From Asterochloris sp. CNOR1 (lineage: Eukaryota; Chlorophyta; Trebouxiophyceae; Trebouxiales; Trebouxiaceae): 64,000 nucleotides of DNA. A program made the position numbers and the translations under genes. Of the stretch, positions 106-62,617 are shown piece after piece. Every line of letters starts with the position of its first letter. Positions within the stretch are counted from its first letter, which is position 1. The notes beneath the pieces are model-generated. The model saw nothing but the letters and a program-made list of their open reading frames with translations. It was not told the DNA's origin and searched no databases. The stretch covers positions 1,860,001-1,924,000 of the forward strand of contig OZ017746.1 in NCBI GenBank assembly GCA_963969365.1. Reading direction: 5' to 3'.

Positions 106-3100
106 ATTTGCTTTGAGCGACCAGTCCGTCTTACCCGGATTCACGTTGGCTCGGCGCCCGGAGATGCACAAGCTTATGTGCACCTCTTCGCCAGAGACCT
201 CACAGCGCTTGCAGGAAGCAGAATGCTGTGCCTGCATGAGCGCATCGAGTTGCCTGCCAGCGGGATGAAGGGCCTCAAGTTTGAGGTCAGTTCAGCCGAG
301 TTGCTTCATGCTGCGCTGCAATGTGCTGCGCAAGCTGCTGGCATGCTGTTAAATTACCTGCCTGGCTGACGCTCCAATTGTTGTGAGGCGGCCAATGGCG
401 TCCTTTCGACTGCGCTGCAGCATGTCACCGACTGTTTGGTGCTGCGGGGGAGATTCCAGACGCTGCCGCTGCACATATATGGCATACCTCTTCCCCAGAG
501 CCATCCCATGCAGGTGAAAGATGATGCCAAGTCACTCGTCTGATGCTTAAGCACATCTTTCAAGCAGCATTGCATCCTCTAGACACGAACAACTTCTGGC
601 AAGATGGCTGCGGTATTGGCAATGCGCCGCCTGGTGCTTGCAGACCGACCAGCAGCTGACAGCTGATGCACAGAGCCGGCTGAAGAACCTTATTGGTTCT
701 TCCCAAGCAGCAATCTCAGCAGCTGTTACAGCAAACATGCTTCTGCCGCCGCCTTCTGCGACAAGGCTGCCTGTGACGCACTTGCCAGGAGGCTACGTGG
801 AGCTGCTCAAATCCATGCTGCCGTTCTGGGCCCTGGTGAGCAGCCTCTGCAGCGCACCACACTGCAACCATGGTGACTCATAGACAGAGTACTGGTACTG
901 CATGCTGTGGCAGTACTGCATTGCTCCACCAGCTGCAACTGGAAGCATGGAAAAGCTTGCTTCTCAAAGAGCCTCAGCAGTGCAATAGCATAGGGCACTG
1001 CCCACTGTGGAGCCAGCCACAGTCCAGCGCAGCTGCCGAGGGGCCTGGCGTGCAGTTGTGTTGGAGCTGCCAGTGGCTGACGGGGTCTGGACATGTAGGT
1101 GCGCACCAAGGAGTCTGCTATGGTGGCCAACCCCATTAACCAGGAGCAGCTGGCTGCCCTGCTGGCCGCAGCCAACAGGGTCTGCAAGCAGGCCTGCACA
1201 CGGGAGGTGCGGTCGCAGACCATTGCTCCACGCGCAGCAGCCGAGCGGCAAGCCGCAGCCAGGGCTGCTGCTGCTAGGTTGCGTGAGGAGAAGGCAGACG
1301 AGCTGGTTGGGGACGCTGTGCTCCCCAGCGAGACGCTGTTCGATCTGGACCCCCCGCTGCAGGAGGCTAAGCAGGTGGGCCAACATGTCTCTGCTGCCTT
1401 TCATTGCCCTTGAAGCTTCTCGTTGCCGACTTGCTTGCCCTGCACTGCCATCGCCCTAGGTGCTTGCCAATGCCTGCATTGCGCTGCCTTGTGCCCCCTC
1501 CACTGCTCTGGCTCTCAGCGCGTGGCAACTCTCAGCGTGTTGCAGTGTCTGTGGCATGCAGCTGGCTCTCAGTTAAGGTAAGGCGCACTCTCATTGGCTG
1601 CTGCCAGACAGCCTGTGACCCCGAAAGGGCTCACACCTCTCCCTCTTGCAGGCTGCTGAGGCCCGGCAGTTTCAGCCCAATGGCTGTGGTTCAGCATAAA
1701 CAGCCTGTATCCAGAGGCTCTCTCTGCAGTCACAGAGCAAGGAACCTGCAGCCGGTGTTTACAAGACAAGTTGAGACCTTCTTTCCTGCAGGCTGCTGAG
1801 GCAGAGGCAGCAGCAGGTGCTGCCCTTAAGGCTGAGCCCCACAATGACGAGCCTGCTGCTGATGAGGACAGCGTGGGGGAGGTGGCAGCGCTGATGGCTG
1901 CTGAGTGGTGCAGCGTGTTGGGGGGCGCCTATGCCTCTGCAGAGTCTGTGGAGTATGGCATGGCTGGTCTGGCAGCCGCCATCATCCTGGCAACCAGCTC
2001 AAGGTGCACAACCCTTGCCTTGATGTGAAGTGGCAAGCCAGTGGCAGTACGCAGATGTGCTCAGGCTGCTTTGCAAGGCAGCCTAATGGTCTTCTGCACA
2101 TCAAAGTCTCCGGCCCTGAGCAGGCGTCAGCAGCACACTCTCCGGCATGGTGTGAACAAGTGAAGGCGCCTTGTGACCATCTTGGTCAGCTTCTTTTGGT
2201 AACACTTCATGTCATCCAGCGCAGTCGCTATGCTGACTCTGCAGGCATGCAGCTCAGCTGCTGGCCTTCCACAGCCTTACCTCTCTGGCATCGGTCCTGG
2301 ATATGATGCGCCCACCCAAGTCCACCATGCGCTTTGCCATTGTTCTGGCAGAGCTGCTGACTAGGTCAACCGGCGCTATGGGCTGCGAGGCTGTGCTGGG
2401 ATGGTGGACGCCAGGCGAGGTTCCCAGCGAGGTGGTGTCAGCCTCGGTGGTGGCCGCTGCCGGGTTGAGCCCCCGCCTGAGCCTGGCCTGGCAGGAGCTG
2501 GTGCTGCACCAGCAGCGCAATGCCGCTGCTGAAGCTTCAGCAGCCGCAGCAGCCGGAGCAGACGAGAGGGAGCCTGGCTCCCCCTCTGGCGTGGGGCTTG
2601 CTGCTGCCAATGACGAGGACAGGGCGCGGCGCCACAAGCGCAGCAGGCGCAACAGGGATGAGCGCAGCAGCAGGCGCCACAGCAGCCGCCACAGCGATGA
2701 CCGCGCTGCTGACCTGGAGAATGACCAGCCGGCAGCAGTCCGCCCAGAGGCTGTTCATGATGCTGGGCACTTGAGGCAAACTGATGGGCAGGCTCAGCAG
2801 CCCCGCGCGGGCAGCGAAGATGTAGCTGTGCTGGTCAAGCCTGACCCTGATCTGCCTGACTCGGAGGCACCCATGAATGGTACGTCGCACCCTCACGTGA
2901 AAGCTCTGCTTGAGCACTTGCACCGTTTTGTGAAAGGCCTGCACTGTCATGTGAAAGTACTGCTTGAGCACCTGCATGCATGCAGTGTAGCCCCATGCTT
3001 GGCACCGCTGGCACCTGTAAGCAGTCTAGCTGCTGAAATGTGTTCTGAAGGCGTCAGTTACATCTGAGTGTCTTGTTGGCCATGTTGTGCTCGCCCACAT

Positions 3101-6100
3101 TCCCAGGGTCCAGCTGCTGCTCGCAATGAGAACGCACAGCTTGTGTTTATTGTTGTTGCATGATTTTTATGTCTGTCAGGAAAAGCCCAAATATGTTCTC
3201 TGCTTCACGACTTACTGAAGTGTGGTGCACTTACTTATTTCCTGTGCCTGCTGTGGCCTGTGGCAAATGCCTTTCACCCCCAAGCTTAAGTGCGTTGTGC
3301 TGCATCAACTGCATGTGCAGGCAGTGCCAATGTCTCTGAAAAGCTGGAAGTAGCCCAAGATCAGCATCAGCGCGCAGCCTGGGATGGCTCACCACACCCT
3401 GCTGGTGAGAATTGCTGCACTGCCTCTTGCTTCTTGAACTGCAAGCATGCAGACTAATCTTAGCAGGTGGCAGAGTCACGAGGTATCGCACAGCTCTGGC
3501 GGTTGATGTGACTCATGCTGCAGGCAAATACAAGGCAAGCCTCTAATCTTTGCTCCTGTGCTGCTGTGTGCAGACTCAGAGCGGGGTGCAGACAGGAGCC
3601 GCCGCCACAAGTCACGGCGCAGCAGCCGGGACAGGGAAGGGCGATCTAGCAGGCGAGATAGGGACAGGCCAAGGGAGCATGGCAGCATCAGAGAGCCTGC
3701 CAGAGAGGCTGGGAGCAGAGATAAGCAGCAAGAGCAGCAGAAAGATCCTACTGAACATGGCAATCACAGGAGCCACCACGGACACAGCCGTGAGGTCTCC
3801 AGGGCTGATCATGATGCTGAGGTACCATCGCAAGGCAGGCCGGCTGAGGAGGCTGAGCTGAAGCGTGAGCGTTCAGGAGATGTCAGAGCTAAGGCGGAGG
3901 GTGACAGGGCGCGGGGGCTCAGTAAGGAGTCTAGCCGAAGCCTTCGACGCGGCAAAAGCCAGGACCGCAACTCCAGCAGGGACTGCAATGACAGGGATCG
4001 CCAGCGGCGAGACCACAAGCGTTCCAGGTGAGGGGGGTCCAGGAAGTGGAACTGCATGCAAAAGGTCCACATTTGTTCCAGGTGGACCTGGACGAGGGCT
4101 CAGTGGGGAAGCTGCTTGCATTGCTTCCCGCTATAGGCTGCCTGATGCAGCAGAGGGGCTTGATGTGTCAGCCTGTGGCAGCTGAGCTGCCGCTGGCGAA
4201 TAGGCTTGAGCACTGCTTGCAGAGAAGTGCTGTGTGCAGGTTCAAGGGCTTGAGCTTGCCAATGGCAAACCAGAGAGCACAGACTCAGCTGCCTTGGAGC
4301 TGTCTATGTCAGGTGCCTGAAGGCTCGAGCGGGGTTGCTTGCCTGCCTGTCTGGGCTGCTGGCCTCAGTGCGGCTGCAAGCCCATGCCTGGACCTTCTGC
4401 ATGCAGTCCCAAGTGCATGGGCCTGCCTGCAAGCCCCGAGTGCAAGTGCCAGCACAACTGCCCCTCAAGTGCGCTGTGAGCAGATCCCTCACCCAATGCC
4501 GGCAGGTCCAGGTGCGCGCGCTCACCTGGCAGCCCTGAGCCAGAAGCACAAGCGCCTCTGCCATCAGCTGCTGCCATCTGGCCTCTTTGAGCGCAGGTGC
4601 AAGCGCCGGCTCATGCCGTTGGCAAACATGACACAGGCAGCGTGTTGGGGCCTGCAGGTCCATCCGCTCCTGCTGGCCACCATTCCTGAGCCAGAGAGCA
4701 AGTGCAGCTGCCATCAGCTGCTTGAGACCTGTCTCCGTTATGCATTTGGACTCATCACTTGCCAGCTGAGACACGCAGCATGGTGTTGCCTGCAGGTCCA
4801 AGCACTCACATTCGCCCGGCAGCCCTGAGCCAGAGCGTAAGCGTAGCCGCCATACCAGGGAGGTTGAGTCCGATTGTCCTGTCTGGGCGCAGCCTGGAGA
4901 TCGATCCAGGCCAGCCTCTGCTGCAGCGGAGGAGCCGCTCAGCGCGGATGCACTGCTGCTGCAGACCTCCCTGAAGCAGGGGCTGACAGTGGTGCGGCCC
5001 AAGCAGGTGCCGGGCTGCTATGCCCCGCTGGTGGACAAGCTGCTGGATCAGCAGCCTGCACAAGTGAGCCTTGGTCACATTCCCTTGTAAATTTGGCCTG
5101 ACCCTGCCAGGTGTATCTGCTCAAAACCACCTTGCACAGGTGAGCCCTTGTTGTGACTCACCACTTCGTGCCACACTTGTCAGCTCTTTGAATCCTCCTG
5201 CTCGCCTTCCTGCTGGCTTGTTGGGGAGCAGAGATGCATTCTCCAGGCAACACCTTGCAAGATGCCTGCCTCTGCAGAACAGGCCTGATGACATTGTGGC
5301 TCATTGTCATTGGTTGGCCATGCAACCCAAGGCTGAGGTTCCAGTTCTTCTAAACTATGCGGAAGCATCAGCCTGGCACTGTCTGCGCAGGTGTCTGGTG
5401 TGGGCATCACACTGCTGCAGCGCTTGACCTTCTACCAGACCGTCACCGACTTTGCCACAGCAGCAGACAAGCTGCTGGCAGGCATTGGCACAGGGGATGA
5501 CACCGAGCAGCTGCTGGAGCTCAGCGAAAGGGTGGCCCTCCTGGAGCAGGCAGGGCGCTGCCTCAGCAAGGCAGCAGACCAGCTGCTGACTGCTGGGGCC
5601 GGTCCTGCCACACCCCATGCAGCAGTCATTCAGGCAATGGATGCACCAAGTAAGCCTGGTGCCAGTGTGACGCCCCAAGATATGACATTGCCTCTCTGCC
5701 TCTCTGCCTCACTGCCCTGCCACAAGCCATGGCAAGGTGGCATCGGCAATAACGCAGCAAGTGGATCGTTTACCTCTTTGCATCTTGTGCCTGCGGCCTC
5801 TTGCATCCCTGCCCTGCAATTGCGTGCTGCAATCTTCTGCCTTGAGCAATATGTTACTTGCCTGTTAGAGAGCAATGCTTGGAAAGCTGCTGGGTTCTGT
5901 GTGGGCTGGAGGCTGCTACAGCAGTGCCTGAGGTGCGTGGCCCTGTCTACCTGCAGCCCACGCCCTGACAGCATCGGCGGCCTTTGATGCTCCCACACTG
6001 GCTGCGCTAGGCGCCAGGCATATCCTGCAGTCCCTGGCGGCCCTGCTGCACTCCCCTTCAGTGCTCACGCAGCAGCTGCAGGCCAGCAATCAGCTGCCTG

Positions 6101-9100: not shown

Positions 9101-12100
9101 TAATGCTGCTGGGTCTTGAGCAGCTGTGGATAGCAAAAGTGCAGCGCGAGGTAGCCCTGCCCATCAATGCTGGTGTGCTGTGCAGGCTCGCAAGGCAATG
9201 GCGTCCACCATGAAGACCTGGTTTGACAACACTTCTTGGCGGCCCAAGCTGGTCACAGCTGCCTTTGTGGGGGCCAAGGTGGCAGCTTCAGAGCGCATAG
9301 AGGCGCCCTTCCAGGTCAGCACTCATCTGCACATGTGCCACTGCAAAGCTTGACAGGCATCTCTCTGCACGTAGCCTGTCTGCACGCTTAGTGTGTCTGA
9401 TTTCATGTACACACACGCCTGCACACAGCCTGCCGCCTGATGTGCTTAGCACCTGCTCGAAGCCTGCTGGGCCTTAGCTCCAGTTGTCCGATAGGCGCCC
9501 GTGCCAGCACGGGGCTGTCAGGCAACTTGTTGCACCACTGCCCTACCGGGAGCCTGTCCCTCAGCATTCTGAGCCATCTATGCCCAAGGCACCTAGTATA
9601 GATAAGCCTGTGCATGCTGGTCGACCTGTTGCACCCATATCTCTGCCAAGGGGCCTCACCAGTCCGAGGTCCTACTTGTCCTGTCTATCTATGTCCCTGC
9701 AGGCAGCCTCCTCAGTGGGCGCCACCTGGTGTCTGCTGGGCACCCTGTTGGGCCAGCCACTGCTACACCGCCACTGAGGGAGCAACCTGAGCGCTGCTTG
9801 TGCTGTCCCTTCAGGCAGCCCGTTCAGTGTACACCAGCCTGTGTCTGCTGGGCGACCTATTTCCCGCCGAGTGGCCGCCGCCCCAGGCACGGCGGGGGGC
9901 CCCGCACCCCCCACCAACCCACCGCCCGTACCGCATCGCGCTGTGTAACGCCCTGGAGCCAGTGCTGGCCAGCTTCAAGTCTGCGGTAGCCATGGCCGTG
10001 CAGAGCGAGAGCCGCGTCATGCGGGCTGTGCTGGTCCGCCTATGTGCGAGGGCTGCAGGTGGGCATCGTCAGCCATGCAGTGTGCTTTGAATGGGGGCCA
10101 TAGCTTCTTTGCCTGTGCTGGGATTGCAGCTCTGCCCAGGGCTCCTCTGCAGGGCTGTAATAGCTATGTGCACGGGCGTGTGGGTGCCTGCCTGATTGCA
10201 ATTTTTCAATGAGTTGCTAGCGATATTGGTGGAATGGTGGTGTCCCGGCAATGGTCAGTTGTCCAGTTCAGAGTTGCAGTTTGCGCTTGGCCGCACACCA
10301 CTCCTCTACCACTTCAGCGGTACTGTGTCAGCAGGTCAGCTTTTCAATTCGCACCTGCAGTCTGGGCAATGCATACCTACCTATTGCATGCGTGTACAGG
10401 ACTCGGGGGAGGCCTGGGCAGGCTGCTGGCAGAGCCCATCCTTAAGGCCATGCAGGAATCCACTGAGGCAGGCAAGAACTTGTCAGAGGCCAGGAGAGTG
10501 CTGGAGATGGTGGTGCCCCTTGCTTACAGGCCACCCCTCAAGGTGTGTACCCGTTGTTGCCCTGCCCAGGGCATGGTCCCCATGGCATGCATGCTTCCTC
10601 ATCCTCAGCCGCCTGCTGTGCTTGAGGCATGTTTGTGGTCTCGTCACCTCATCGTCGTGAATTGTCAGCTGCATGAAACATCAGCACATCGCAACCCCTA
10701 GTGCTGATGACAGATGCAGCAAGCAGGTGCCTCTCAGGTCACCAGCTTCATCATGCCGCCTGACAGTGGGCCGTCCAGGTGGCTGGCCCTTGTCCATGGC
10801 CAGCTTGAAGCTGATGTCTTGGCCGTGCAGGCCGCCTTGCTGTTTTGGAGGGTGGCTGATGCCGCACCCAGGCTTGGGGCTGTTTTGAGAAAGCCATCTT
10901 GATGCTGAGGTTGTCAAGCATGCTGCTTGGCTGGCTACCATCCATGATAGGGGCTGCTTTAGAGAGAGCCATCCTGGGTGCCGAGCTTCCCAGCCTGCTG
11001 GTTGTGCTAGCTGCCTTCCAAGCGTGCAGGCATAGGCTGAGTGCCTTGCAGTTGGCTGCTCATAGATGCCCTCTCAACTTGCCCCGGTGCAGGCTGCCTT
11101 TCTAGACTTGAAGGTGGCAGGTCTGCTGGGGCAGCTGCTGGGGCGCCTGGTCCCAATCCTGGACCGTGGTGTGGAGTCAATGGCTGTCTGCACCATGGTC
11201 TTGGAGGTCATTCTCATCTTGATGGACCCCGAGGCCTGCTGCTTGAACCCTGGGCTGGATGCTGCGCAGAGGGTCGTGGACGAGACGCCCACTATCGCAG
11301 AGGTGGGCAGCTTGTGCCCTCACTGAGCTAGCCACAGGCATGAGCCCCTTCTGCAGCCCATATCGCGGGCTGACGGTGTGCCCTGCAGTCCAGCCCGTCA
11401 CCTGTTAAGGCTGTCTGAGGAGCCCTTGTGCCCTGCATGGCAAGATGCTCAGACGTGACAGGATACCTCCAAACAAAGCCTGCCCGTTGGAGCCATCATG
11501 GGGCGCTGCTCCAGTAGGTGGGCAGGCCCGCTACCGCTGGCATTGCAGCACATGCACATACAGCAGCCGCCGGCTGCAGGCGGCGCACGTGGCGGCGGTG
11601 CTGATGGCCTCGCTGTCTCGCCTGGGCGCCAATGCCCACATTGCGAGACGCATCCTCAAGAACCTGGCCATGCACGCCCCCGGGCGGGCCACCCTGCGCA
11701 CAGGGGCAGCCAAATGGCAGGCACAGGCAACTGGCAGCGACTTTGCGGCAGCAGTGGGGTCGCGGGCAGCCCTGGAGTGGGCCGCGTCCCGCCTGTGGGC
11801 TGCTGGTGAGGTTGGCGCCTGCCCTTGAAGTGGGCTGTTGTCAGCATGTGGGTTTCTGGTCACTGTCTTCGGGCCGTGGGGGGGCCCAGGTGACGCTTGT
11901 GGTGTGCAGTCAACACGCTGGCTGGAACAGGAGGCTCCCTCTTGCACCACATGTATCTCACATGCTGTGACAAGTAGTCCATAGACGGAAGCTGCGAAAT
12001 CTAGCACATCCGGTTCTGTCCACTGCTGGGTTGCTTTCATCTGCTGCAAGCTAGCAGCTGCACTCCAGCCAGCAGGAGCGCTACTAGCCCATCATGCATG

Positions 12101-14850: not shown

Positions 14851-17195
14851 TCAGTTGACAGCATCCAGGACCAGCCTGCGACTTTTGATGGGGGCCCACT
14901 TCCAGCGCTTGTAGTAGACGGCGGTAATCCAAACCAGCGTCAGCACAAACACCCACTTGACGCCCATCAGCTTCCTGTCATCATGCTCTGGCTCAGCCGC
15001 CCAGGACAGGAAAGTGACGACATCCTGCAGCATGTACGTGGGATGCTGTGAGCCTGCTTTGGCACCCTGACACCCCAGCTGCAATTGTGGCTCTCAGCTA
15101 GCTGCTGCTTTCCTATGTTCAGTCTGCAAGCTTGTGTCCAGCTTTGGCGTCGACTACACACAGTCTCAGGCGTAGTGCGCTGTAGTGGACCTGGACTGCA
15201 GTCGGGTCTGTGCCTCCACACGCAAAAGCACTGTTGTGCACTGACACCGTGACGCACCTTGGCTTGCTGCGCCTCAGTTGGGTCGGTGCCATCATCATAC
15301 TCAGTGCCACCGTCAGCCAGCATCTTGGGCATGGCGATGGCGCCGCCTGGGAAGTAGGGGTTGTAGTACAAGCCCTCCCTCACCTGCAAACAGCAGCAGG
15401 TCAGCACACAGAAGGGGGCATCCACTCCTATCAGAATCAAGTGCTTGACAGTTGAGCATTCTGGTGTGCGCTGCGCCAGCAGCAGGGCCAGATCTGGTCT
15501 GTTGAAACCTCAGCTAGCAGTGCAGCAGCAGTGCGAGGCACCCGACTGATCCTGTACCAGCCAGTCTGACTGCCGCAGGAAATTCTCAGGTGCGCCCGGA
15601 GCAGACTGCTTAGCCCGGTGTCTTGCACAGAGACCCCTGCAATCAAACACTTCAACTGTACCCAGGAGTGCACGCATCTGACATGCATGCTCGCAGGGGC
15701 ACTGCTAGCCCAGCAGCATGAGCTCTGCCATTCCAATCCACAAATAAAGTTGCATTCACCAGCCCACCAGCAAGTATCTGGCTGGTCAGGCCAGACACGC
15801 AGCACTCACATGCACGCCCGCGGGGGGCTCCCGGTAGCCCAGCAGCAGGGCAAACACATAGTTTGCCCCATCGTGGCGGGCTTTGGTGATCAGGCTCAGG
15901 TCGGGCGGGTAGGCCCCGCCGTTGGCATAGCGCGCTGCCTCCTCGCTGGTATATGGGCGGGGCAGGGGGTCGCTCAGGCGCCCGGGTCGCTCAAACTCCT
16001 CACCCTCCTCGTTGGGCCCATCGGTCACCTCAGTCTGCAGGCACGCCAGGGCAAAGCAACCTTCTGAGTCTGGGAAAGCCATGCTTGCGATGCAGAGGCC
16101 ATGTCAGCGTAGCTTGTGCGCTGCGGAGCTCGAATATGGTAAAGTGTGAGTGTAGGTTCATGAAGGATGCAGTGTCAATGCAGAGCACGTCGTGGAGCTG
16201 GCCAGCAGGCTTGCACCGCAACAAAGCTGCTGAGACGGGCCTACACGCAGCAACAGAACCCACCTCTTGCCCCAAAAGCTTCTGCACAGACCAGTTTGCT
16301 GCAGCACCTTGCAGGCACCCACCTCGGCAGCCATCTCTTTAGCTTCTTCCTCTGTGTAGGCCACCCCCACCAGGTTGCGGTAGTGCAGCTGCTGCACGCT
16401 GTGGCAGGCTGCACACACCTGCTGGTACACCTGGTGACCTCTGCACAGAGGCGCAGCAGATATTTCTGTAAAGGGCTGGTGCATTGACAGGCTGCCAGCA
16501 GGCATAGCCGCCAAGATCTTGCCTGGCACAAGGTGCTGAATTTGGGGCGCTGCCAACAGACATGAGAGGACAGTGCTCATGTCAGGGTGCTGCCTCCATG
16601 CCAACATGAGATGAAAGCAGGGCTCCAGGCCAGGGCGCGGCCCCAAAGCTGGCAATGACAGCCTGTGGGATGTTGCAGGGAATCCTGAACGATCAGCCAG
16701 ACTCACCTGCGGATGCTGGCGTGGTCAAAGGCGCTGAGCCACCCATGGTGGGACCATGGGTAGGAAGGCGCGGCCAGGCCATGCTCTGCCTCATCGGCCA
16801 TTGCAAAGGTCAGGCCAGCTGCAGCTGCGCCCACACCTGCCACAGCCAGCACCCCGCGGGACCACTTGCGTGGCTGCTCCTGCTGTGTGCTGCCGCTGGC
16901 CGCAGCAGCTGCCTCTGTGCTTGCATTGGCAGCCTGGCCTGCTGCTGGCGCGACCTGCAGGCCGGACAGAGCATGAGCAACGGGCGAGCTTACAGCAAGG
17001 AAGAGGGCTTGGGCCAGCATGACCATTGCATGCCGATAACCTGGTGGCCTGGCCCACTGTGGATGGCCTGCACCCTGTGGCAGTCTCAATTGCTTGCATG
17101 TGTACACAGGGCTGGAGCCTTGCCTGAGAGCCCACAGATGATGAACCTCCCTTGAGGGCCCTGGATAGCAGCTTGCTGCCAGAGCCTCGCAACAT
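14851..17195 (-). CDS. CYC1: Cytochrome c1, haem subunit of mitochondrial complex III
   Basis: Carries electrons from the Rieske protein to cytochrome c in the inner mitochondrial membrane. Exons on the minus strand: 17195-17124, 16954-16707, 16440-16323, 16034-15810, 15383-15258, 15024-14851. These total 963 nt, giving 320 residues, the normal plant length. The N-terminus is a basic, Ser-rich mitochondrial presequence followed by a hydrophobic Ala/Gly stretch. The covalent haem site CAACH is at residues 116-120, the axial methionine is in GGAIAMPK (about residue 239), and a C-terminal membrane anchor ([19 protein letters not shown]) is followed by a basic tail. The start ATG at 17195 gives [17 protein letters not shown]. 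Intron 1 needs a GC donor (CTCAG/GCAAGG) to keep frame. It is divergent from PI4K gamma. Identity is secure. Confidence 0.97.
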
Positions 17196-47630: not shown

Positions 47631-47955
47631 TGCTGCCAACCTCCTTCACGCTGCAGCAACTGGAGCTTGCATGCTAGACCACAATGAGCTGGCTGGCACC
47701 CTGCAGATCATGTAACATGAATTGACTTCTGCAGCACGCTTCATCAGCAAAACCAGGCTGCAAAGCAGTGAGCAGGGGCCCTGAGACAGCTCTTTGTCAT
47801 GCAGCATGCAAATCAAGAGTGTCAACGGGCGACCTCACCCCTGCTCGGAGGGCCAGCTGACGGATCCTGAAGTTTAGATGTTGTAGAAGCCTGCAATTCG
47901 CAGGGAGCTGTGGGCTTCAGGGGTTCGATTTAGATGTCCTTGATTCGTTGTGACA
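47631..47955. promoter_or_regulatory. Divergent promoter, SnRK2-like copy 2 / C9orf78-Tls1
   Basis: 325 bp between start codons, presumed bidirectional promoter plus 5' leaders. No defined motif. Confidence 0.4.
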
Positions 47956-49634
47956 ATGACAAAATTGAGTGAGGAGCCTGCCCCAAGGAAACGCAAGAAT
48001 TTCAGGAAGAGGCCAGCCGCAGAGTCAGAAGAGACAGATGGACAGGATTCTTTTGACGTGGGAGTCATCCAGTGAGCGAGACGCCTGCCCTCCTGCTAGT
48101 CCCTTGCGCACATCACCCTGACATGGCAGTGCCATGTAGGGACCAGATTGCTGAGCGCAAGGCGGCACAGCAGCAACGCATGCGCACGCAGGCAGGTTGA
48201 CGCCCTGGCAGATGCTGCGCACGCCCAGACGCCAGCTCAGTAAGCGAGGCATGTGTCTGCAGGGTGCCAGAAATGAGGTGCTCGCAGCTGGCCTGGACAA
48301 GTTGCAGGCAGCCCAGGTGGGAGTGCTGCCTGATGCATAGGTGCAATGCGTGGCTGCTCATTGGAGCCACGCGCAGCATGACACTGCGTAGGGAGCACCC
48401 AGGACTAAACATCGACACACAACTTGAGCTCTGTTTCATGTCCTGTGCAGGCTGCTGGTCTTTCCAAACGGGAGAGGAATAACATCATGAATTCATATGT
48501 CAAAGAGCAGGTTGACCAGCACACAGAGACAGATCCCCACATGTGAGCGGCTTGACTGGTTTTCTCGCACAGTGCAGCCAATGGCAAGCTTTGTGTGCAT
48601 CCTCTGAGAAGCTTGCTGGACTCAGAGCCTGTAGCAAACAGCACCAGTTTGTTGCCTTGTCACCTCTTGTGAAGCCCCGGGTGAGCTGCTGCAGGGAGGC
48701 TTGGATTCGGGAGCAGATGGCCAAGCGTCTGGGGCAGGCCCTGGGAGAGGCGGAGCAAATGCACCCTGATGATGAGCTGTATGCTGTGCCCAAAGATTTG
48801 CAGGTTGGCGTTTACTTAATCAGGCAGCCTGCTGATGTGCTAGTAACCCACTGAGCGACATACAGACACACCCCGAGACAGAGAGACACACACACCACCC
48901 CTGGAGTCACCTTGCTGATGAGTGGCCAGGCTGTCCTATCAGCGCACAGGGGCGCAAGTGCCAGGAGGCCTTTGTTGTGCATGTCTGCAGGGGCAGAACA
49001 CCAAGCCAATGGACCCTGGAGCCTGGGCCACCGGCATCGTGGAGGTAGCGCTGCCCATGGAGTACAAGATGCGCAACATTGAGCAGACAGAGGCCGCCAA
49101 GAGGGAGCTACTCAGCAAAGCCAGGTGGGTCAATGTGTGACGGGGCTGTTGCACAGCAAGGCCATGAGTGCCAAACGCAGCGGCTCAGCAAGGTAGGGCA
49201 TGCCGACGTGCACCTGGTCACAAGCGTGACCACCTTGGTTGGGGCAATTGCACAGCAGGGCCAGGGCTCATGTCCTGTGTCTCACTGCGAAGCCTGCCAG
49301 ACCCTGGTGGCGATTCTGTGAAGGTCCCTCTGCCTTATAGCTTAGCATACTCAGGTGCTCCAATGTGTATAGCTCAGCACCTTCAGCATGTGAGCTGGCT
49401 GTTGCTCGGTTTTTGTTGAGTCCAGGCAAGAATCACCTGTTGCTCGCTGCCTCTAGGCCTGGACTGGATGATGATGAAGTGGGAGCCACAGCAGCTCCAC
49501 TGAGGCGAGGCATATATCCTGTCGACTTTGGCAAGATGACGCCGCTTACTGCTCCGAAAACCGCAGAGGACAGCACCTTTGTGGCAGACAAGATGCGGCA
49601 GGAAAGGCGCAGCAAGCAGAAGAAGGGCAGATGA
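47956..49634 (+). CDS. TLS1: C9orf78/Tls1 family protein (hepatocarcinoma-associated antigen 59), spliceosome-associated
   Basis: Family includes fission yeast Tls1, human C9orf78 and Arabidopsis CSU2, disordered spliceosome-associated factors. Exons: 47956-48071, 48140-48191, 48263-48316, 48451-48542, 48695-48803, 48991-49124, 49457-49634; 735 nt, 244 residues. Features: basic/acidic N-terminus (APRKRKNFRKRPAAES), RKAAQQQRMRTQ helix, SKRERNNIMNSYVKEQVDQH, HPDDELYAVPKDLQ, and the family core WATGIVEVALPMEYKMRNIE, ending in a Lys/Arg-rich tail (QERRSKQKKGR). Exon 2 must leave through a GC donor (CGCAG/GCAGGT) to keep frame. Nuclear role inferred from the family. Confidence 0.9.
49142..49273 (+). 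repeat. Duplicate in the last TLS1 intron
   Basis: About 30 bp at 49142-49172 (GGCTGTTGCACAGCAAGGCC) recurs at 49239-49273 (GGCAATTGCACAGCAGGGCC), 97 bp apart. Confidence 0.65.
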
Positions 49635-49777: not shown

Positions 49778-52700
49778 TCAAAGTTTGGTGTCAATCGAAT
49801 GGGGGGCCCAATCAAGGTCTGCCCAGTGAGGAGCAGGGCACTCAAATGTCCAGTCTGGTGTGGAGTATCGATGGGCATGCAGCCACATGGGCACCAGCTC
49901 AGTGGGGTACCCATCGGGCACCAGCCAGGGGCACTGCCAGCACAAGTCGTCTATCAGCTGCTCAGGCACCACAAACTCATCTGGCTTGACTCCCAGGCTG
50001 CCAACTGCCTGCAGCCTGGCGAAGTCCACAGCTTCATCAGGCTGCATGCCCTGGCTGCTGCAAGCAGTCAGCATTTGCTGCTGGGCAGGCTCCATAGGGT
50101 CCTCAGTGCTAGAGCATGTGTGGTTGCTGGCAGCAGCAGCTGGAGTGTCTGCCTCACATCTCTGACGCTTGGCAGGCTGCTCGTTGGTTGGCTGACCCTC
50201 TGTCTCCCTCTCCCACCTGCCGCGCATCTTGATCTGAGTGGGGCCTGGGTAGGTGCCGCCATACTGCTCATCATTAGCAATGGGGTGCCCTAATAGCTGC
50301 AGGTGCACCCTGCAGCAAAGGGCGAAGCACACCCTCAGCACATTGATGCGCCAGCGTGGGGACACCATTGCATGTTGCTTATACAGGAAGTGCAGCAAGC
50401 TGATGGCATTGGGACGCACTGGCAGCTGCAGCAAGCACCAGCACTGACATGGGCATGCATTGTGCAACCTCCATGACCATGCAAAGATTCCGGCGGCAGT
50501 GGGCTGGCAAACGAGTCAGGTGCTGGGCTGACCCTGCTGGTCCAGGGAGGCCATGCTCATTCCATGTGCACAGAGGTGCCCTGTGCGCACCTGAGCTGGT
50601 GCGTGCGCCCAGTGAGCGGCCGGCATTGCACTACGCTCGTCAGCCCATCGGAGGCCGCCCCCAGCAGCCTGAACTCGGTCACTGCATCCTTCCCCTGGAT
50701 GTTGTTGCGACGCTCAAGGTCCTCCGCTGACAGCTTGTCCCCTCCGCTGTGCAGCCCATACTTTTGCAGCTCCTTCAAGTTGGGCACAGGCTGAGGGGGC
50801 CCCCCTACTGGCGGCATTGCCATGCTGCTCGCTGAGGCATCCTGGGTCTGGGCTCCTGCGGGGCGCGCCCTGGAGACCCTGCCACCTGCAATACTGCCTG
50901 CTGGCATGCCCTGGCCCTGGGCTGCTGCAGGAGCACCCTGAGGGGCACCGCCCTCAGCAGCTTGTTTTGCTGGCGGTGTGACAGCTGCAGGCTGTCCTGC
51001 CCAGTCGCCTTCCAAGTCCGCCTCCCGCTGCTGCTGCTGGTGCCCATCACCTGGTGCAGCAGGCTGAGCAGCGGCATCCTGGACGGCTCCCAGCGCTGTG
51101 ATGGAAGTCACAAAGGTGTGGTTGGTGCGGGCATCCCAGGCCAGTGCTGCGTGCACCTTGATGCGTCCCAGGGGGAAGGTGCCCACCACTCGGGCCAGGT
51201 ACACTTTCTCCACATCCTGCCTGTTCTGCAGCGGGGGCACACGTGAGGCACTGAGCTTGTGCCTTGCACTACTGTGCCTTGATCTGCCAGGAGCTGTTTC
51301 CACCACTTTGACAATGCCAATGGCCGTGCCTGGAGGCAACTTGCAGGGTCAGCTGCCTGTGGCGAGCAAGTGTGCACAGAGGCAGCATGTTCAACAATGC
51401 TCAGACTCTTTCTGTTCTGCAGGATGGGCCAACAAGGGGCAACAACTGATGCCTTGCTGCAAGCGAATGCACAGAGGCAGCTAAAAGGGAAGGTGGCAGC
51501 ATTGCCATTGCCACCCAAGAAGAGCTACGAGTGCAGCAACGACGCTCAAGTCTGAGGCTTGAGAGTTGCCACTGCCGGTGAGCGCAGCATGGCTGCAACT
51601 ACTGGTTGGCGACAGCACTGGCAGCAGCAGGACTGCAGAACCTGCACTCACATGAACACGCCACACCACTGCCACAAGGTGTGGCAGAGCTTCAGCCATC
51701 CATAACAGCAGCAGCAGGCAAGATCCTGCTAAAAATGGGACCAAGCCCAGCCTCACTGTCAGCTGGGCGCGCACCCCCTCAGCAGCTTTGGCTGACTTGG
51801 CAAAGAGCAGAAGGCCTGAGACGGGTTTGTCCAGGCGGTGCACGGGGTACAGGGAGCCCAGGTCCGGCCTGCTCATCTGCAAGATGGCGAGCACCGTGTT
51901 TTTGCGGTACTGCCCTGCCACGTGGACGGGGATGGAGGCTGGCTTAGTGACAGCCACCAGCTCGTCTGTCTCTGCGATGACCTGCAGCGGGGCACACAGG
52001 GGCCTTGTGGAGGAGGGCTCAGGCGAGTTGGGTGCCCCCGAGGAGCAAGGGTTGTACAGCGTGCTCAAAGCAGGCAGCTGCCCTGGCGCAGGGCTTGCAG
52101 ACAGCATCGTGCCCACAAAGTCAGTGAACTGCTTCAGGAAGCAGATGCCAGACTCCCCTGCTCGTCAAGCACTGCTCCCTCTGTGTGAGGAGATCCAGCA
52201 CAGGGGAGCTTTTGCAACACACAAACCTGGCACAGCTGCTCTCAGCCTCAACTGCAGGGCGGTGCCATGCCATGCCTGCCTACCTCGATGGGCAGGTCCA
52301 GCACAGGGGGCTCATGGCGGTGCACAAAATGGCGCAGCTGCTCACGCCCGTCCAGGGGGGTTGTCGCCCCGACTCCCTTGCGCTTCTCAACACGAATGCG
52401 CCCGTCTGCAAACGCCTGCTCATAGTAGCTGCGAGGGCGGGCTGGGAACTCCTGCAGCATCCACTGGAGCCTTCCCAGCTGCAGCCTAGAGCCGGGGCTG
52501 TTGTGGCACAGGTAAGGCCAAGTTCCTGGAGCCATGGCAGGCCTCAGGGCTGACAGCAAGGCATGGGCTGGCGCTCGGGCTGAGGCTGATTCCGTGGCGT
52601 GAGGGTTGTACGTGGGCATGTGGCATTGCGCACTGCAGGGAACAGGTTTGGCCCGCATGCAGGTGTTCATGGCATGCTGTTGACTCCTGGTGGAGCACCT

Positions 52701-53262: not shown

Positions 53263-55517
53263 ATGTCAGCTGTTCGGCTGGAAGTGGTGGAGCGCCAGCA
53301 AAACACAGCAAAAGTCAACGGCAGGGCATCCCTGAGCTCTGAGCGGGGCTCTGAGAAACTGGAATTCATTGAGGGAGACCTTGCCAGCCATGAGCGCTTC
53401 ATGATGCTGGTAAGCGCTCTGACCCCAGACTGCCTCGCTAACGGTGGCTCCGATGTCTCTATGCATGCAGGCCCCTCCCAATGCATGTGCAGTCAATACA
53501 AAGACTATGTAATGTCTCCTTTGCCAAGAAGTCTTCTTTGCCAAGCTGGCAGGCCCTCAGTCATACTGTCCACATGCATGCTGGCTGCTCTGCCCGGACA
53601 TGTGAGTCGTTGCAGCATGGCCAGGCTTGTAAATGGGGTGTCCACCCTGGCTGTAGCTGGCTGAGCGCCTAGCAGAGGCTGAGGACCAGATTGCCAACCT
53701 TCAGACCGAGCTCCAGGCTGAGGCGCAGGGGCGCCTGGAGATTCAGACAGAGCTGCAGGGGCGGCTGCCTGCGCCCCCCACCCCGCAGACTGTCCGCATT
53801 CAGCACCGCCCTGCCGCTTACTTTTTCAAGTTGCTTGTCTTCAAGGACAAGTGAGCCTGCCGCCTGTAACAGTCTGCCCTAATTTGCCTCTGCCTGGCTG
53901 ACATGCAAGCCCTGCTCAACAGCAATTTCAAGGACAAGCAAGCCCCTTGCTCAGCTGCTGCATCTTGCCAGCACGCCAAGCCCTGCTGCATGACCACATG
54001 CTCAGCTCTGCTGGCATGCTCAACAAGCCCGAGGTAAGCCCGCTGGCTGCTCATGATATTCTTTGCCTGGCTGACCTGCATGCCAAGCCAGGGTTGCCCA
54101 TCTGCAGGTGGCTGAAGAATGGCGTGGAGCCCACTGGGAAGCGAGGAGAGGCGCTGCTTGCAGCCTTCCGGCTGCTGCTGCCTACCCCCATGGTGTCAGG
54201 GCCGGAGGCAGAGGAGGCGCCTGACAGTTGCGATGCAGTCTCATACGTGAGCCTACGGGGTGGCATCTGTCTGACCTCCCTGATGCACAGGTGGAATGAC
54301 CTTCTGCTGTGGGTGAGGCCTGCCTGCACCCAATTGCTGTGACCTCTGCCTCCTGCAAGTGCTTATGACTTCAACATCTGCGCACCATGACAAGAGCAGC
54401 GTCAGCTGGCCCCGTTAAGTCAGACCAACTGCAACTGCACATCACAGACATTGCTGGGGTTTGCAGGTTCACAGCAACCCCATGGAGTGGAGCTACACAC
54501 GAGCATCACGGCACGACGCGTTCAGGGATCGCCTGATTGCAGATATCGCCATCTCGCTGCACCGGGAGCTGCTCATGGTTGAGGTGAAGGTCAAGCAACA
54601 GCTCTGCCCCACTGCAGCAGCTGCAGCAGCATCCCTCGTGCTTGTCAGGTTACACAACACAGGCACAGACTTTTGCGCTCACATCAGGCGGGTGCTTGTG
54701 CCCCGCTGTGTGGTGCCAAGGGGAAATGACAGCCTACGTTGTGGTTCAGGGGTAGACGCGCTGCACCCTCGACGCCCACACCTGCGCTGCAGGGGGTCTT
54801 CACAAGCTGCAACCCTCAGTGCGCAGCCAAGCATGTGGCCGCCGCCATTGAGTCTGCCTGGCAGCCGGCGCTGCTCCCAATGGCGTCCCACCCTGACCTG
54901 TTGTCCCTGCCTGCTGAGCTGCCTGAGACGGTCAAGCTGGGCCTGGCAGAGCAGTGGACACGTGGCAGAAGGGATCTGCAGGTCAGCCCAGACACTTAGG
55001 CAGCAAGAGCATGCTGATCCGAACCTGCCTGTTGCTTCTCAGGGCAGCAGGCAGCAGCTTCTCTGTGTGTGTGAGCTTGGTGCCGTTGCTGTGGAGGACG
55101 TTGGCTGTGCTGGTGGCCAGCTAATGCCTTTAAGCCGTTCTTGATTTGCTGATGATGCTTGTGCGGTCTGCCTGTCCACCCATTGCCTTGGCTTGTGGCA
55201 AACCTGTTGCTGACACCTTGGCTGCCACTTTACTTGACCGCTTTGTGCTGGCTGGGCTGCAGGAAATCGCCCTTCCGCGCTGCTGGGACGCGGTTCTCTC
55301 GAGTGGCCAGGGCTACATGAGCTGCTTTGCTGACTATTCAGATGTGGATGGCCAGCTGGCCTTCTTTGAGGAGGGTGACTCTGTGAGCTCACGCATGAAG
55401 TTCTCACAGGAGGAGAAGGCCATGCTGCAGATGGCCATGCACATCGACGATGTTTGGATTGAGAACCCCCAGGTTGTCGCATCAATAGAGGAGAAGTGGC
55501 CCAACCTACTTAGATGA
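53263..55517 (+). CDS. Unidentified protein with N-terminal coiled coil
   Basis: Not recognised. Exons: 53263-53409, 53657-53850, 54108-54312, 54467-54583, 54793-54981, 55263-55517; 1,107 nt, 368 residues, and phases agree at every junction. After a short basic start (MSAVRLEVVERQQ) comes a coiled coil with heptad-like Glu/Gln/Leu pattern (LAERLAEAEDQIANLQTELQ), then RPAAYFFKLLVFKDK, a mixed helical region (RHDAFRDRLIADIAISLHRE; AAAIESAWQPALLPMASH), and a C-terminal segment GYMSCFADYSDVDGQLAFFE ending WPNLLR. No catalytic motif, signal or membrane segment is seen. Exon 3 reads through a weak internal donor/acceptor pair at 54247-54290, which would break frame if spliced. A diverged echo of the exon 2 end lies in the next intron. 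Confidence 0.65.
53840..54090 (+). repeat. Donor-side echo and intron duplicate in the coiled-coil gene
   Basis: The exon end TTCAAGGACAAGTGAGCC near 53840 recurs near 53927 as TTCAAGGACAAGCAAGCC. A second pair, TGGCTGACATGCAAGCC near 53895 and TGGCTGACCTGCATGCC near 54068, lies in the same intron. Confidence 0.75.
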
Positions 55518-55844: not shown

Positions 55845-58800
55845 TCAAGCGGCTGCTCGAGCATCTGCTTCCAATTTGCGCCGCTTCCAGGCCTGAGCAG
55901 CCTCCAGCAGCTTGAGGTTGGGTGCTGCAGCCCCCTCATCAGGGAAAATGTCTGCAGCAGAGCACAGCCACTTTGGAGCCAGACCCCCCGCGGAAACCTA
56001 TTGCCCTGGCTTGGCGACGCATGCGCAGGCTCACTGCACACCCAACAGTTGGCCTCACAGCAACATCATGCAACTACCAGCTTACAGTCACCATCCCCAG
56101 CAAGGCGTGCAGCCCACTGAGCAGCATGCCACACGTTGCCACCAGGCACAGCTTCTGCAATGGGGCACAGCAAGACATGACATGCATTTCTAGCCCACTG
56201 AAGGCTGCCACCAAACCATGCCACTGGCAACCATGCACAGACAGACAAAGCAACAACAGCATCTTGGCACTCACAGTCATAGTACTCTTCCATTCCAGCA
56301 TCAGATCCATCATCAGTCTCAATGCGGCGCTTGCGCTTGACACGCTTGGGCATCCTCTTTTCAACGGCTTCCACCGCGGCCTGCAGCAGGGCCACCATTG
56401 CAGGTCAGCAAGAGTAAGATCACATTATCAACAGCACCCGAAGCGTAGGGCATCGTGCACCAGCGCGACAGACGATGCAGGTCCCTGCCTCACAGAGAGC
56501 AGTTGATGCTGCAACAGGGGAACAATCTGTGACCCACCTGTTGCTGTGCAGGGCTGCTTGAGTTGCTCTCAGCTTCAAAGGCACGCCATGCTTCCAGCAG
56601 CATTACGGCTTCCTCCTTAGCATCTGGTTGTGACTCCCGCAGGCTGAAGAAGGCACGAGAGTATACACTGCAGCGCAATGATGCAGAGCCTGGCCGCAGC
56701 ACTGTGGAGCCATAGAGCCTGCTGAAGCAGAAGGCCATGATGTCCAGGGCAAGGGTGCCAGCGGGTCCTGGAGCATTGCAGCAGTTGATTGCGCCACCAA
56801 ACTATGAGGACAGCAGCAGCAATAAGTGTGCAAGCGAGCCAGACCTCCCCCTGAAACGACACAGTGCCAACTGGTGCATCTCGGTAGCAGCAGGCATGGA
56901 CTCATTAGTTGAAGAGCTGCTTGCTGCAATCTTACAGGCACAGCACCCACATTCAGCAGCCCAACAGGTCCAGCCTGTGTCACATTGCAGGTGTGGGGGC
57001 CTACCTGCGGGCCTGCTCCTCCCTGGCAGCAGCTGCCATGGGATCCTCAGCCTGCAAAGCTGCCGCACGCCTGGCACCTGCTGTGTTGCCGTTGGCCCGG
57101 GGCTGCTCCTCTTCCTCTTCCTGCTGCTGGCCCAGCAGCGCCTGAGGAGTTGCCTCAAAGGCTGCATAGCTTATCCACACCTGGCAGAAGCAGTCGGTGA
57201 AGTAGCCTTCAGAAAACAGGAGGAGCAGCTTTGAAGAGTACCAGCTGCAAGCGCACCTATACCACAAGGTCAACAGCCCCTGCAAGTTCGAGTGTGGGCA
57301 CCTGCCAGCCTGATAAGCAAGCTGATGGCATCCTCTTGGGTGAGCATGCCACACCATCAGGCACCAGGGTGATAGTCACAAGCAGCTGCTGCTGTTTACT
57401 GATTGCAGGCTCATTGGTGCGCACCTTGACGTGCTTGGTGCGTGCCAAAAGGCGCTCATACAGCTTGCGTGCCCTGTCGCGGTTGCCCTCGCTGATTTCA
57501 AAGTCGATGTATGTCTGCAGGCAAAACACAATGCTGTCAGCAGCTGACCACCAGCAAACAGTGCATGTGAGGGGGACCCTTACGCCATGCTGAGCAGACA
57601 CTGCGTTCAAAGCTGCCTGTCTTGCAGCTGACACAAGTGATGCAGGCAATGCCGCAGGTAGCCGAGCCCCTCACCTTCCACAGGGTCCTGAGCAAAGTCA
57701 GTATGGCTGCTGCAATTACACAGCACATCCACGGGCGCCCTGATCGTGCAGAGCACCCCCGCACAACTAGCAATAGTTGCTGGTGAGGCACAGCATTTAG
57801 AAGGGTCACACCTCCCTGGGGTCCACAGAAGCATCAGGCAGCACATTCCCAGGTCTCCACTCCCACCTTCCACAGGACTTCAGGCATGTCTAGCAGCGGC
57901 TGCTGAATGGCCAGCTCAAACAGTGCTCGAGTCCTGTCTGTCTCTGCCAGCGACCGCTCCAGGTCCGCAAAGCGGCACCAGGCCTGGCAGTTTGCCGGGT
58001 TCCAGGCCAAGTACCGCTCATACAGGCGCCGGCAGCGATCCAGATTGCCCAGCTGGTGCTCAATCTGCGGCAGCAAATCATCTGATTGGCTGCCCTGCAG
58101 ATGGACCATAAGATGGCAGCAATCATCGCACAGCAAGGCCCACCACTGAGTCCACAGACACAGCGGCAAGTGTGCAAGCATCCCGCCACCCTGACCTACT
58201 TCGTCAAAACCATGTTTGCAACTGCGGCCAGCTCCTCCTAAGGGAAAGGGCGACGCACAGAATGATGCACTTCAAGCTGCAGCTCTGCAGGTTGCACCAC
58301 ATCTGCATTGCATGCCTGCAAGCGCAAACATATGACCCACCTCAATGTAGGATTTGAAGAGCTTGTCCTTGGGACACTTCCCAATGGCCATGCCAAGAAT
58401 CTTCCGCGCCGAGTCCAGCTTGAACTGCCTGATCTCGAACTGAGCTGCAAGAATCCAAATCTGCACACCACCAACAAACTGCTCTCAAAGGGGCACCACC
58501 AACGAGTATGTGCTGCACGTGCAGCTAGGTCTTTAAGGCACAGGAGTATGATGCGACTGCAGTACCTGGCTCTGACAAATTCTGGGCACAACAGCAGACC
58601 TCAGGCCACACTGCCTCGCCCTCCTGTTGCAAAAATAGACAATGCCCAACCTTCGTGGCCTGTGAAGAGGTCATGGGATTTTGAGCTTCAAGCAAGCTCG
58701 ACCGCCTCCCCTCCAGGGCATGTGTGCCACACATTAGAGCCCGCCCTACCTTGGCAAACGTGAAAAGGTCATGCGGGATGAGCTTGAGGCAGGTGCGGTA

Positions 58801-61800: not shown

Positions 61801-62617
61801 GGGCATTGCGTCCACTCTCCTTGGCAGAGCACCATTTGGGCGTTGCTGTTGGCCCCATGCAGGCTGCAGGCAGCTCCTTTGGCAACAGCCCTGCAGCTGA
61901 TTGCGGTCTGAGGCTGATGCCATGCAGCAGGCATGCCAGGGCCTGCTTGTACACGGTGCAGGCCCTGAAGAGATACCTGCGCACAGCTGGAATGGAGCAG
62001 CCATCCTTAAAGCAGTTCAGCAGGCGTGCAGGACCTCCCCAGGTCCTGCTGGGACAGCCTACCTTGACCCAGACGCTCTGATTCCAGCGCACACGGCGCA
62101 CCAAATCTTCATACTCCTTCCGCTTGCGCAGACGGTACTCTGCAAGCTCCTGCGGATCGCTGATTTTCTGCCGCGGAGGCTTGAAATCCTGCTCCTGCAG
62201 CTCCTTGCTCTCCCGCAGGATCTGCTCAACAGTGATCTGCAGGCATGAAGTGGACAGGAGTGTGGCTCAGGCTCAGGTCGCCAGCTCAGGGCGCAGAGCC
62301 GCTGGAGAGACCTGGACCCCTGATGCATGTGCCTGCGGCAGGCAGTGGGCAGAATGGACAGCGTCTAGAGCAGCTGAAGAGGCAGCAGGCTGAAAAGGCT
62401 GTCTAGGCAACTCAGGCTGGACAGACAGCGTCCAAATCTTTGTACTGGCCTAGTGCTTGCGCTATGGCGGTGGTTGGAAAGTAGCACAGCGCGGGCACTG
62501 CAGGAAGCCTATGTCCTGCACCTGCTGTGGAGCAGGCTGCTTGTTTTTGACTTGCGTTGCCCTTGGCAACCGCATCTCTGTGTCCTTCTGCCTGACGCCT
62601 CCAACGCTGGACGCCAT
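55845..62617 (-). CDS. CRNKL1: Crooked neck / Clf1 HAT-repeat pre-mRNA splicing factor
   Basis: Core scaffold of the Prp19-associated spliceosome complex. Exons (minus): 62617-62522, 62236-62063, 61778-61651, 61350-61167, 60709-60527, 60046-59876, 59537-59409, 58935-58750, 58460-58341, 58064-57867, 57514-57425, 57180-57005, 56667-56538, 56380-56275, 55951-55845; 2,178 nt, 725 residues, the usual length. N-terminus [17 protein letters not shown], then the [18 protein letters not shown] block, followed by HAT repeats such as [78 protein letters not shown] and [20 protein letters not shown]. The C-terminus EEYYDYIFPDEGA followed by [16 protein letters not shown] is diagnostic. An Ala/Glu-rich insert ([15 protein letters not shown]) lies in exon 12. 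All introns are GT-AG. Identity is secure. Confidence 0.97.
61785..61851 (-). repeat. Acceptor-side direct repeat in Crooked neck
   Basis: GCAGAGCACCATTTTGGGC (about 61785) and GCAGAGCACCATTTGGGC (about 61823) are 38 bp apart, directly upstream of exon 3; the proximal copy abuts the acceptor. Confidence 0.8.

Follow-up and report, generated by a model that had tools for sequence, protein, structure and literature searches.

The window considered here, a 64-kb stretch (G000:C1:1860001-1924000, GC content about 58%) of a 56.4-Mb genome in 21 contigs, probably that of a green alga, contains genes for a VIR-like protein, cytochrome c1, a PI4K-like protein, a TPR (TFIIIC-like) protein, two kinases, a TLS1/Hep59-like protein, a pseudouridine synthase, an unknown protein and Crooked neck. 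All of these genes carry copies of neighbouring sequence at exon edges or within introns, including what are termed here echoes, which are diverged copies of the end or the start of an exon that sit inside the adjacent intron. Across 314 kb, made up of the window and a further 250 kb on contigs 1, 2, 3, 5, 8, 11, 13 and 15 (16 stretches in all, to which the counts below refer unless the window is named), roughly one intron in 15 bears a worn extra copy of the adjoining exon end. Extrapolated from this sample, and provided that it is typical, the number of such introns in the whole genome would be several thousand.

The excess of local copies is apparent without any annotation. An ungapped self-comparison (8-base seed, scoring +1/-1.5, score at least 15, lags of 12-1000) returned 25 near direct pairs for the window and 234 for the added 250 kb; far lags (3000-3988) gave 2 and 6, and inverted pairs at lags of 12-1000 numbered 4 and 19. 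Most of the excess in the window falls between lags of 50 and 300. A single 20-kb block with an exonic 33-bp repeat supplies 85 of the 234 near pairs, and the independent events are therefore fewer; the repeat itself (11 residues, many copies) is tandem and occupies approximately 6520-7390 of L014 (L013L014 16520-17390). At least 3 near pairs, against 0-2 far pairs, are found in 14 of the 15 added stretches, with L029 having 1 against 0. One stretch, L032, is unlike the others in having more near inverted than direct pairs (10 against 3), and it also carries a 2928-base open frame. A strong local pair at a lag of at least 40 is present in 54/591 introns, and 38/591 have an exon-intron pair.

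The position of the copies relative to exons depends on ab initio gene models, which come from an unsupervised hidden Markov model trained on the same sequence and seeded with weak consensus motifs (agGTgag and ctgcAGg, weight 0.5). With exons below 45 bp merged into introns, the output comprises 50 genes and 591 introns (median 247 bp), and the trained splice motifs are AG/GTGAG at the donor and CTGCAG/G at the acceptor. GT begins 572/591 predicted introns and the remaining 19 begin otherwise, the model permitting GC. The acceptor, (C)TGCAG/G, is very strong, with T at 89%, G at 93% and C at 97% at positions -5 to -3 and a slight pyrimidine tract, a strength that may be partly self-reinforcing because the model began from a weak form of the same motif. 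Pfam backs the models with a whole protein kinase domain, HAT repeats in Crooked neck, Hep_59/TLS1, pseudouridine synthase, PI3_PI4_kinase in the PI4K-like gene and TPR repeats in the TFIIIC-like gene. The exon order of cytochrome c1 is backed by Pfam Cytochrom_C1 (1-218/219) and by the best PDB match, chain 8bel_E, over residues 39-305, an entry that we take to be from a plant and that makes a green alga the likely source of the DNA. Pfam gave no match in the 410 residues tried of the VIR-like protein, whose name is solely the label of a preliminary description of the window, nor any for the unknown gene.

With these borders in hand, the 40 exon bases at each border were aligned to the adjacent intron and ranked against 300 intron pieces of equal length from other genes, introns below 60 or above 1500 bp being omitted (591 reduced to 568). 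At p<=0.01 this edge test gives 37/568 donor and 21/568 acceptor matches, where about 6 of each are expected, against 8/568 and 6/568 with reverse-complement queries. Against a second null of 200 dinucleotide-shuffled introns each, the counts are 34/568 and 21/568, with 4 and 4 for the reverse complement. Donor matches exceed acceptor matches (Fisher p 0.042). The matches are spread over 14/16 stretches, and of the 58, chance would account for about 11. The window alone yields 11/115 donors and 3/115 acceptors (reverse complement 3/115 and 1/115), with 4/62 from the exon segment 121-160 bp in, so that the acceptor signal depends on the wider sample.

The signal is also specific to the edge. 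Segments 41-80 bp into the upstream and downstream exon match in 12/499 and 5/502 cases, those 81-120 bp in in 7/388 and 7/397, and those 121-160 bp in in 4/267 and 7/276, which amounts to 1.0-2.5% at the same threshold. In 30-bp tiles (479 introns, those below 120 or above 1500 bp omitted) the edge tile reaches 5.64% at donors and 3.76% at acceptors, where 0.66% is expected; the second exon tile gives 1.54% and 2.85%, the third (61-90 bp) 0.49% and 0.73%, and the fourth and fifth 0.87-1.50%. Tiles within the intron stand at 2.4-3.1% against the same expectation, so local copies occur throughout introns and the exon edge adds on top.

These results bear on much of the preliminary description. 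Its central claim, that introns carry copies of adjacent exon edges at donor and acceptor ends and on both strands, holds, and the copies are indeed local, direct and particular to each gene. The further idea that they belong to exon edges needs widening, since the edge is enriched but intron-intron copies exist as well, and the proposed genome-wide extent is right as to spread across stretches and has to be tempered as to frequency, only a minority of introns being affected. Of the loci it named, copies were recovered in the VIR-like, PI4K-like, TFIIIC-like, kinase, Crooked neck, TLS1 and unknown genes (Table 1). Kinase 1 and the TLS1-like gene, together with the pairs 1644/1784, 44038/44147 and 45330/45467, were found by the pair scan only and fell short of p<=0.01 in the edge test.

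Table 1. Local copies at exon edges and within introns of the window (window coordinates)
Gene	Feature	Span	Strand	Evidence
VIR-like	acceptor and exon start 1784-1802 (predicted exon from 1792), echo 1644-1662	1644..1802	+	lag 140, 19 bp 95%, pair scan
VIR-like	intron-intron 2887-2922 / 2941-2976, just past donor (exon end 2879)	2887..2976	+	lag 54, 36 bp 83%, pair scan
VIR-like	three-copy acceptor and exon-start array, echoes ~4504-4575 and 4649-4720, real exon from 4796	4510..4875	+	edge p 0.0033, alignment
VIR-like	pairs of the same array: 4522/4812, 4629/4767, 4685/4824, 4549/4699	within 4510..4875	+	pair scan
VIR-like	acceptor 9804-9861 (exon from 9815), echo 9692-9749, weaker copy 9605-9630	9605..9861	+	lag 112, 58 bp 78%, pair scan and edge test
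Cytochrome c1	donor edge 15275-15290, echo 15199-15214, weak	15199..15290	-	edge p 0.01
Cytochrome c1	donor-edge exon 15810-15847, echo 15683-15718	15683..15847	-	edge p 0.0033; intron side not similar, p 0.56
PI4K-like	exon end and donor 19788-19829, echoes 19896-19937 (88%, 42 bp) and 20050-20080 (90%, 31 bp)	19785..20080	+	pair scan, edge test, alignment
TPR (TFIIIC-like)	exon start 26937-26961, echo 27001-27025	26937..27025	-	lag 64, 92%, pair scan and edge test
TPR (TFIIIC-like)	donor edge 29591-29616, echo 29484-29509	29484..29616	-	edge test
TPR (TFIIIC-like)	donor edge 32444-32459, echo 32197-32212	32197..32459	-	edge test; intron side p 0.03
TPR (TFIIIC-like)	donor edge 34781-34801, echo 34684-34704	34684..34801	-	edge test
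Kinase 1	intron-intron 41356-41430 / 41493-41567	41356..41567	-	lag 137, 75 bp 73%, pair scan
Kinase 1	copy 41779-41824 / 41917-41962; predicted borders (35-bp intron, 41786-41820) doubtful	41779..41962	-	lag 138, 78%, pair scan
Kinase 2	nearly full ~109-bp unit over acceptor 44086 (44038-44080/44147-44189, 44120-44146/44226-44252)	44038..44252	-	pair scan, alignment
Kinase 2	donor edge 44719-44732, echo 44625-44638, GT kept	44625..44732	-	edge test; intron side p 0.0033
Kinase 2	acceptor edge 45330-45363, echo 45467-45500 (88%), motif again 45686-45704	45330..45704	-	pair scan
TLS1/Hep59-like	copy 49142-49164 / 49241-49263; Hep_59 domain	49142..49263	+	lag 99, 87%, pair scan score 15.5
Pseudouridine synthase	donor edge 52294-52309, echo 52191-52206; PseudoU_synth_2 domain	52191..52309	-	edge p 0.0066
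Unknown gene	donor edge 53840-53850, echo 53927-53937; intron-intron 53888-53911 / 54061-54084	53840..54084	+	edge test, pair scan
Crooked neck	donor edge 57864-57876, echo 57672-57684; HAT/CRNKL1 domains	57672..57876	-	edge test; intron side p 0.047
Crooked neck	donor edge 58760-58785, echo 58662-58688	58662..58785	-	edge test; intron side p 0.013

Could the copies belong to a dispersed family? Introner elements are intron-borne repeats with splice sites whose sequence is common to different genes, unlike the echoes, which are unrelated between genes. When the 8.2-kb kinase region was compared with the genome, in a search that scores the best candidates only, it returned itself and 15 listed matches, 14 of them over predicted exons and 1 intronic. 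With far lags at chance and the listed matches nearly all exonic, an introner or transposon family is rejected, as the preliminary description had maintained. The sole non-exon match pairs a kinase 2 intron (window 45061-45156) with G000:C20:60643-60737 at 75% DNA identity. The two kinase genes are neighbours (window 39222-47720). Ahead of the exon start at which they match, the model gives kinase 1 an intron of 199 bp, and kinase 2 has one of 474 bp that carries echoes. Matches to paralogues were located at G000:C8:2563848-2565175 and C1:1104193-1108845. The best-scoring kinase domain of the genome search (G000:C19:10167-10916, L001) belongs to an open frame of 713 residues on a contig of 43 kb and spans positions 3-263 of the profile.

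The form of the echoes was examined by alignment, splice-site scoring, a flank test and a frame count on the 42 echoes at p<=1/300 among the 58 at p<=0.01. Donor echoes lie at lags of 78-139 bp in 17/26 cases and acceptor echoes at 42-145 bp in 14/16. In donor echoes the similarity starts roughly 45 bp within the exon (the query supplying 40 of these) and ends roughly 60 bp into the intron, a stretch close to the median lag; at acceptors the intron-side similarity fades by some 20-40 bp. Where the echo reaches the border, its splice site outscores 95% of random intron positions in 8/16 donor and 6/13 acceptor cases, and it is as strong as the real site in 3/16 and 2/13. Alignments reveal some echoes without a splice site altogether and others with the site in both copies; a GC donor is retained in the echo at border 820 of L031. 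Decoy sites are thus present in a variety of states, but their decay is not evenly graded, since there are hardly any fresh copies.

For comparison with minisatellites (VNTRs), which are head-to-tail arrays of several similar units, 3-4 copies could be aligned in each of six introns (L017L018 18584, L009L010 7803, L015L016 19240, L033 4168, window 4510 and window 19784), with parts of the intron flanks common to some copies; the other echoes were seen as single copies. Tandem Repeats Finder reports for the window one array of about 75 bp with 1.9 copies and a score above 100. In a three-copy acceptor array (L015L016 19330-19470) the middle copy differs mostly by C-to-T and G-to-A changes, several at CG, which by eye, and in this one case, hints at methylation-driven decay; over all 42 echoes transitions are not dominant (113 to 152). 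Mismatch rates by codon position are 0.20/0.21/0.28 (p 0.053), nearly even, as expected when a drifting copy is compared with a constrained exon. Repeat lags are multiples of three in 19/23 exonic clusters against 14/39 intronic ones, which suggests one mutational process under different selective filters. The exon-intron pairs show a weak excess of such lags (21/45 clusters, p 0.08), which may mean that a few of them are genuine coding repeats or have misplaced borders. Echo-bearing introns exceed the others in length (421 against 279 bp, rank test p 1e-5; 450 against 235 bp when classed by pairs). Enlargement by echoes, as had been proposed, is therefore plausible, but longer introns also had more room for copies.

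The explanation that we favour, with moderate confidence, is that the echoes are relics of short tandem duplications within introns and across exon-intron borders. Such duplications would be spaced mostly 60-145 bp and would occasionally be repeated into three or four copies. If the unit comprised an exon end, the donor and the intron start, or else an intron end, the acceptor and the exon start, the mRNA would be unchanged provided that the exon-proximal site were kept; the spliceosome would ignore the echo, the extra copy would be spliced out and the intron would grow, following duplication, by about one unit. Selection would subsequently hold the real exon copy as the echo drifted, such that exon-derived parts would remain recognisable longest and the relic would appear as an exon edge sitting within an intron. 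An upstream decoy acceptor would be harmful for as long as its branch-point region worked, and that region would be lost fast; once the upstream branch-point context had decayed the decoy would be silent and its AG harmless, which would fit the 6/13 acceptor echoes that still score as good sites. The duplications themselves would cluster in the past.

Tandem duplication is supported in aggregate. On the intron side of the supposed unit, a test run on 41 of the 42 echoes finds similarity in 13/41 at p<=0.05 and 7/41 at p<=0.01 (Kolmogorov-Smirnov, KS, p 3e-5), with donors at 11/26 and acceptors at 2/15 for p<=0.05. This replaces a first version (intron flank 11/42, exon flank 6/42 at p<=0.05), which had ignored that the intron part equals the lag minus the exon part. 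In a pair-based version, which omits exon-exon pairs, lags below 45 or above 400 and the exonic repeat block of L013L014, intron-intron pairs have similar flanks inside the unit in 18/31 cases against 7/31 outside it. A further nine pairs, six intron-intron and three exon-intron, were set aside because they span nearly their whole lag. By eye, window 44038/44147 at lag 109 and L015L016 9445/9559 at lag 114 look like whole units, and the arrays of 3-4 copies point the same way.

Several observations weigh against this account. In simulations of tandem units that decay neutrally, run with several indel regimes, the intron side should be similar in 52-85% of echoes as strong as those observed, far more than the actual 13/41 and the 3/13 among the strongest echoes. 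For exon-intron pairs flank similarity is 12/48 against 14/48 in the control outside the unit, where the simulation gives 54-80%. Intron-intron pairs, at 58% observed and 56-87% simulated, fit the indel-rich settings, but exon-edge pairs do not, and the deficit is strongest at acceptors. At L031 607/815, 27 identical bases at a lag of 208 have no visible flank similarity, and even L015L016 9445/9559 reaches only p 0.10 in the intron-side test. Intron tiles in the predicted unit stand little above the controls, at 0.43 +- 0.13 against 0.09 +- 0.10 outside it and 0.22 +- 0.13 for deep exon. The plain tandem model thus under-predicts the erosion of the intron flank, and the earlier proposal of short tandem duplications stands in aggregate but not for the flanks of exon-intron pairs.

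The age of the copies is the other difficulty. Among non-redundant pairs of at least 22 bp and a lag of at least 40, a cut that excludes short near-identical pairs, divergence is below 6% in just 1/37 exon-intron and 2/26 intron-intron cases. A simulation of constant birth without loss (ages uniform to 0.45, lags 60-140, the same length cut) places 103/298 and 78/211 in this class (~35% and ~37%), and the binomial chance of the deficit, worked by hand, is ~3e-6 and ~8e-4. Loss of young copies by recombination should not cause such a deficit: with births at a constant rate, the youngest copies would remain the most numerous class. Either past activity was higher, or copies are born imperfect, or near-identical copies have been collapsed in the assembly. 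An ongoing habit with evenly graded stages is unsupported. Fresh short duplications are not wholly absent, as an identical 42-bp match at lag 39 (L013L014 9946) falls under the lag cut.

What else might place an exon edge within an intron? A rather unlikely possibility is that template switching or microhomology-mediated repair takes a copy of 25-60 bp from an exon edge and sets it down 60-140 bp away with an unrelated spacer, in which case the homologous block would be short from birth. This would suit the shortfall of flank similarity relative to simulated tandem units, the intron-side p above 0.05 in 10/13 of the strongest echoes (9/13 in the first version of the test) and the strong cores without flank similarity at L031 607/815 and L019L020 13967/14099, although the flanks of intron-intron pairs inside the unit, the multi-copy arrays, the aggregate KS result and the nine pairs covering nearly the whole lag are all at odds with it. 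Somewhat less probable still is a distinct process that makes short (25-60 bp), imperfect-at-birth copies at a spacing of about 100 bp, or in which only the exon-like part is kept similar, rather than decayed tandem units; it would account together for the lack of young copies, for short blocks that stop near the splice site and for flanks without similarity. That selection retains echoes as regulated alternative splice sites or decoys seems improbable. The well-scoring echo sites, a few of them equal to the real site, and the better preservation of exon-derived cores than of flanks would be in keeping with it, but several echoes have lost the splice site wholly, third codon positions show no strong concentration of mismatches and only 4/42 echoes would add an in-frame, stop-free piece. 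The last two results also make alternative or mutually exclusive coding exons unlikely.

The introns themselves could, in principle, have been born by duplication. In the Rogers model an intron is reportedly made from exon sequence bounded by two AGGT copies, through tandem duplication of an AGGT-bearing exon segment, a route that resembles the present case in being a local tandem duplication with splice-like sequence and that concerns many eukaryotes. In a cross test of 530 introns (those below 80 bp omitted) at p<=0.01, with about 5 expected, the start of the downstream exon is similar to the intron's first 70 bp in 10/530, a count in its favour, but the end of the upstream exon is similar to the last 70 bp in just 4/530; nor does the model predict that an echo has its splice site at the end where the original has it, as is seen here. 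With no clear excess, intron birth of this type is rejected and we regard it as very improbable for the echoes; the creation of introns, which the preliminary description had coupled with their enlargement, is accordingly unsupported. Scarcely credible, finally, is an artefact of composition or of gene-model error. The introns are rich in CTGCAG-like motifs, and the ab initio models include a few doubtful borders, such as that in kinase 1 (41786-41820). Against this, the nulls were drawn from other introns of the same genome and from dinucleotide shuffles, the queries were exon-only, reverse complements and far lags are at chance, and exon order is backed by Pfam for the cytochrome c1, kinase and HAT genes and by PDB for cytochrome c1. 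Chance and TGC/CTGCAG composition are rejected on these grounds.

Border-crossing duplication is known from single cases. In the potato RdRp gene, passages of Ma, Lan and Niu (2016, PMC4974935) describe a tandem duplication across an intron-exon border in which the unit runs from the 3' portion of an intron into the 5' portion of the following exon, so that the acceptor is copied and a new intron arises; an intron of the same gene contains an 83-bp duplication as well. It is one young case, backed by phylogeny and reads, in which the copied exon part joins the mRNA (PMC4974935). As there, the echoes are direct, close copies that include the splice border, with cases of the site in both copies, but here the old site appears to be in use and the copies are intronic, old and distributed over many genes. 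As to homology over the whole unit, 13/41 echoes have similar intron sides, three exon-intron pairs are nearly as long as their lag and single units look complete by eye, a yield well below that of the simulations. For Drosophila, regional tandem duplications of coding sequence with proto-splice sites account for 5/31 cases of novel intron positions (Lehmann et al. 2010, PMC2891723); these are new positions, and the portions of that paper concerned with them mention no exon-edge relics layered within introns that already existed. No title or abstract opening among the matches listed in a literature search describes such relics genome-wide, which is weak evidence of absence as subscription journals lie mostly outside the search.

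The cause of long introns in compact, intron-dense algal genomes is the open question to which these observations speak. In core-Reinhardtinia (volvocine) algae, in all likelihood a different lineage from the alga here, median introns are 198-343 bp with no 60-110 bp peak, comparable to the median of 247 bp found here; the relevant sections of Craig et al. (2021, PMC8226300) state that the advantage of intron lengths well above the minimum is unknown in Chlamydomonas, and offer no duplication mechanism. A fossil layer of border-crossing duplications would provide a concrete and countable route to longer introns with the protein unchanged. The echoes also give natural pairs of true and decoy splice sites in the same exon context, which could be used to learn the rules of site choice, and the missing young copies raise the question of whether, and why, the duplication process stopped.

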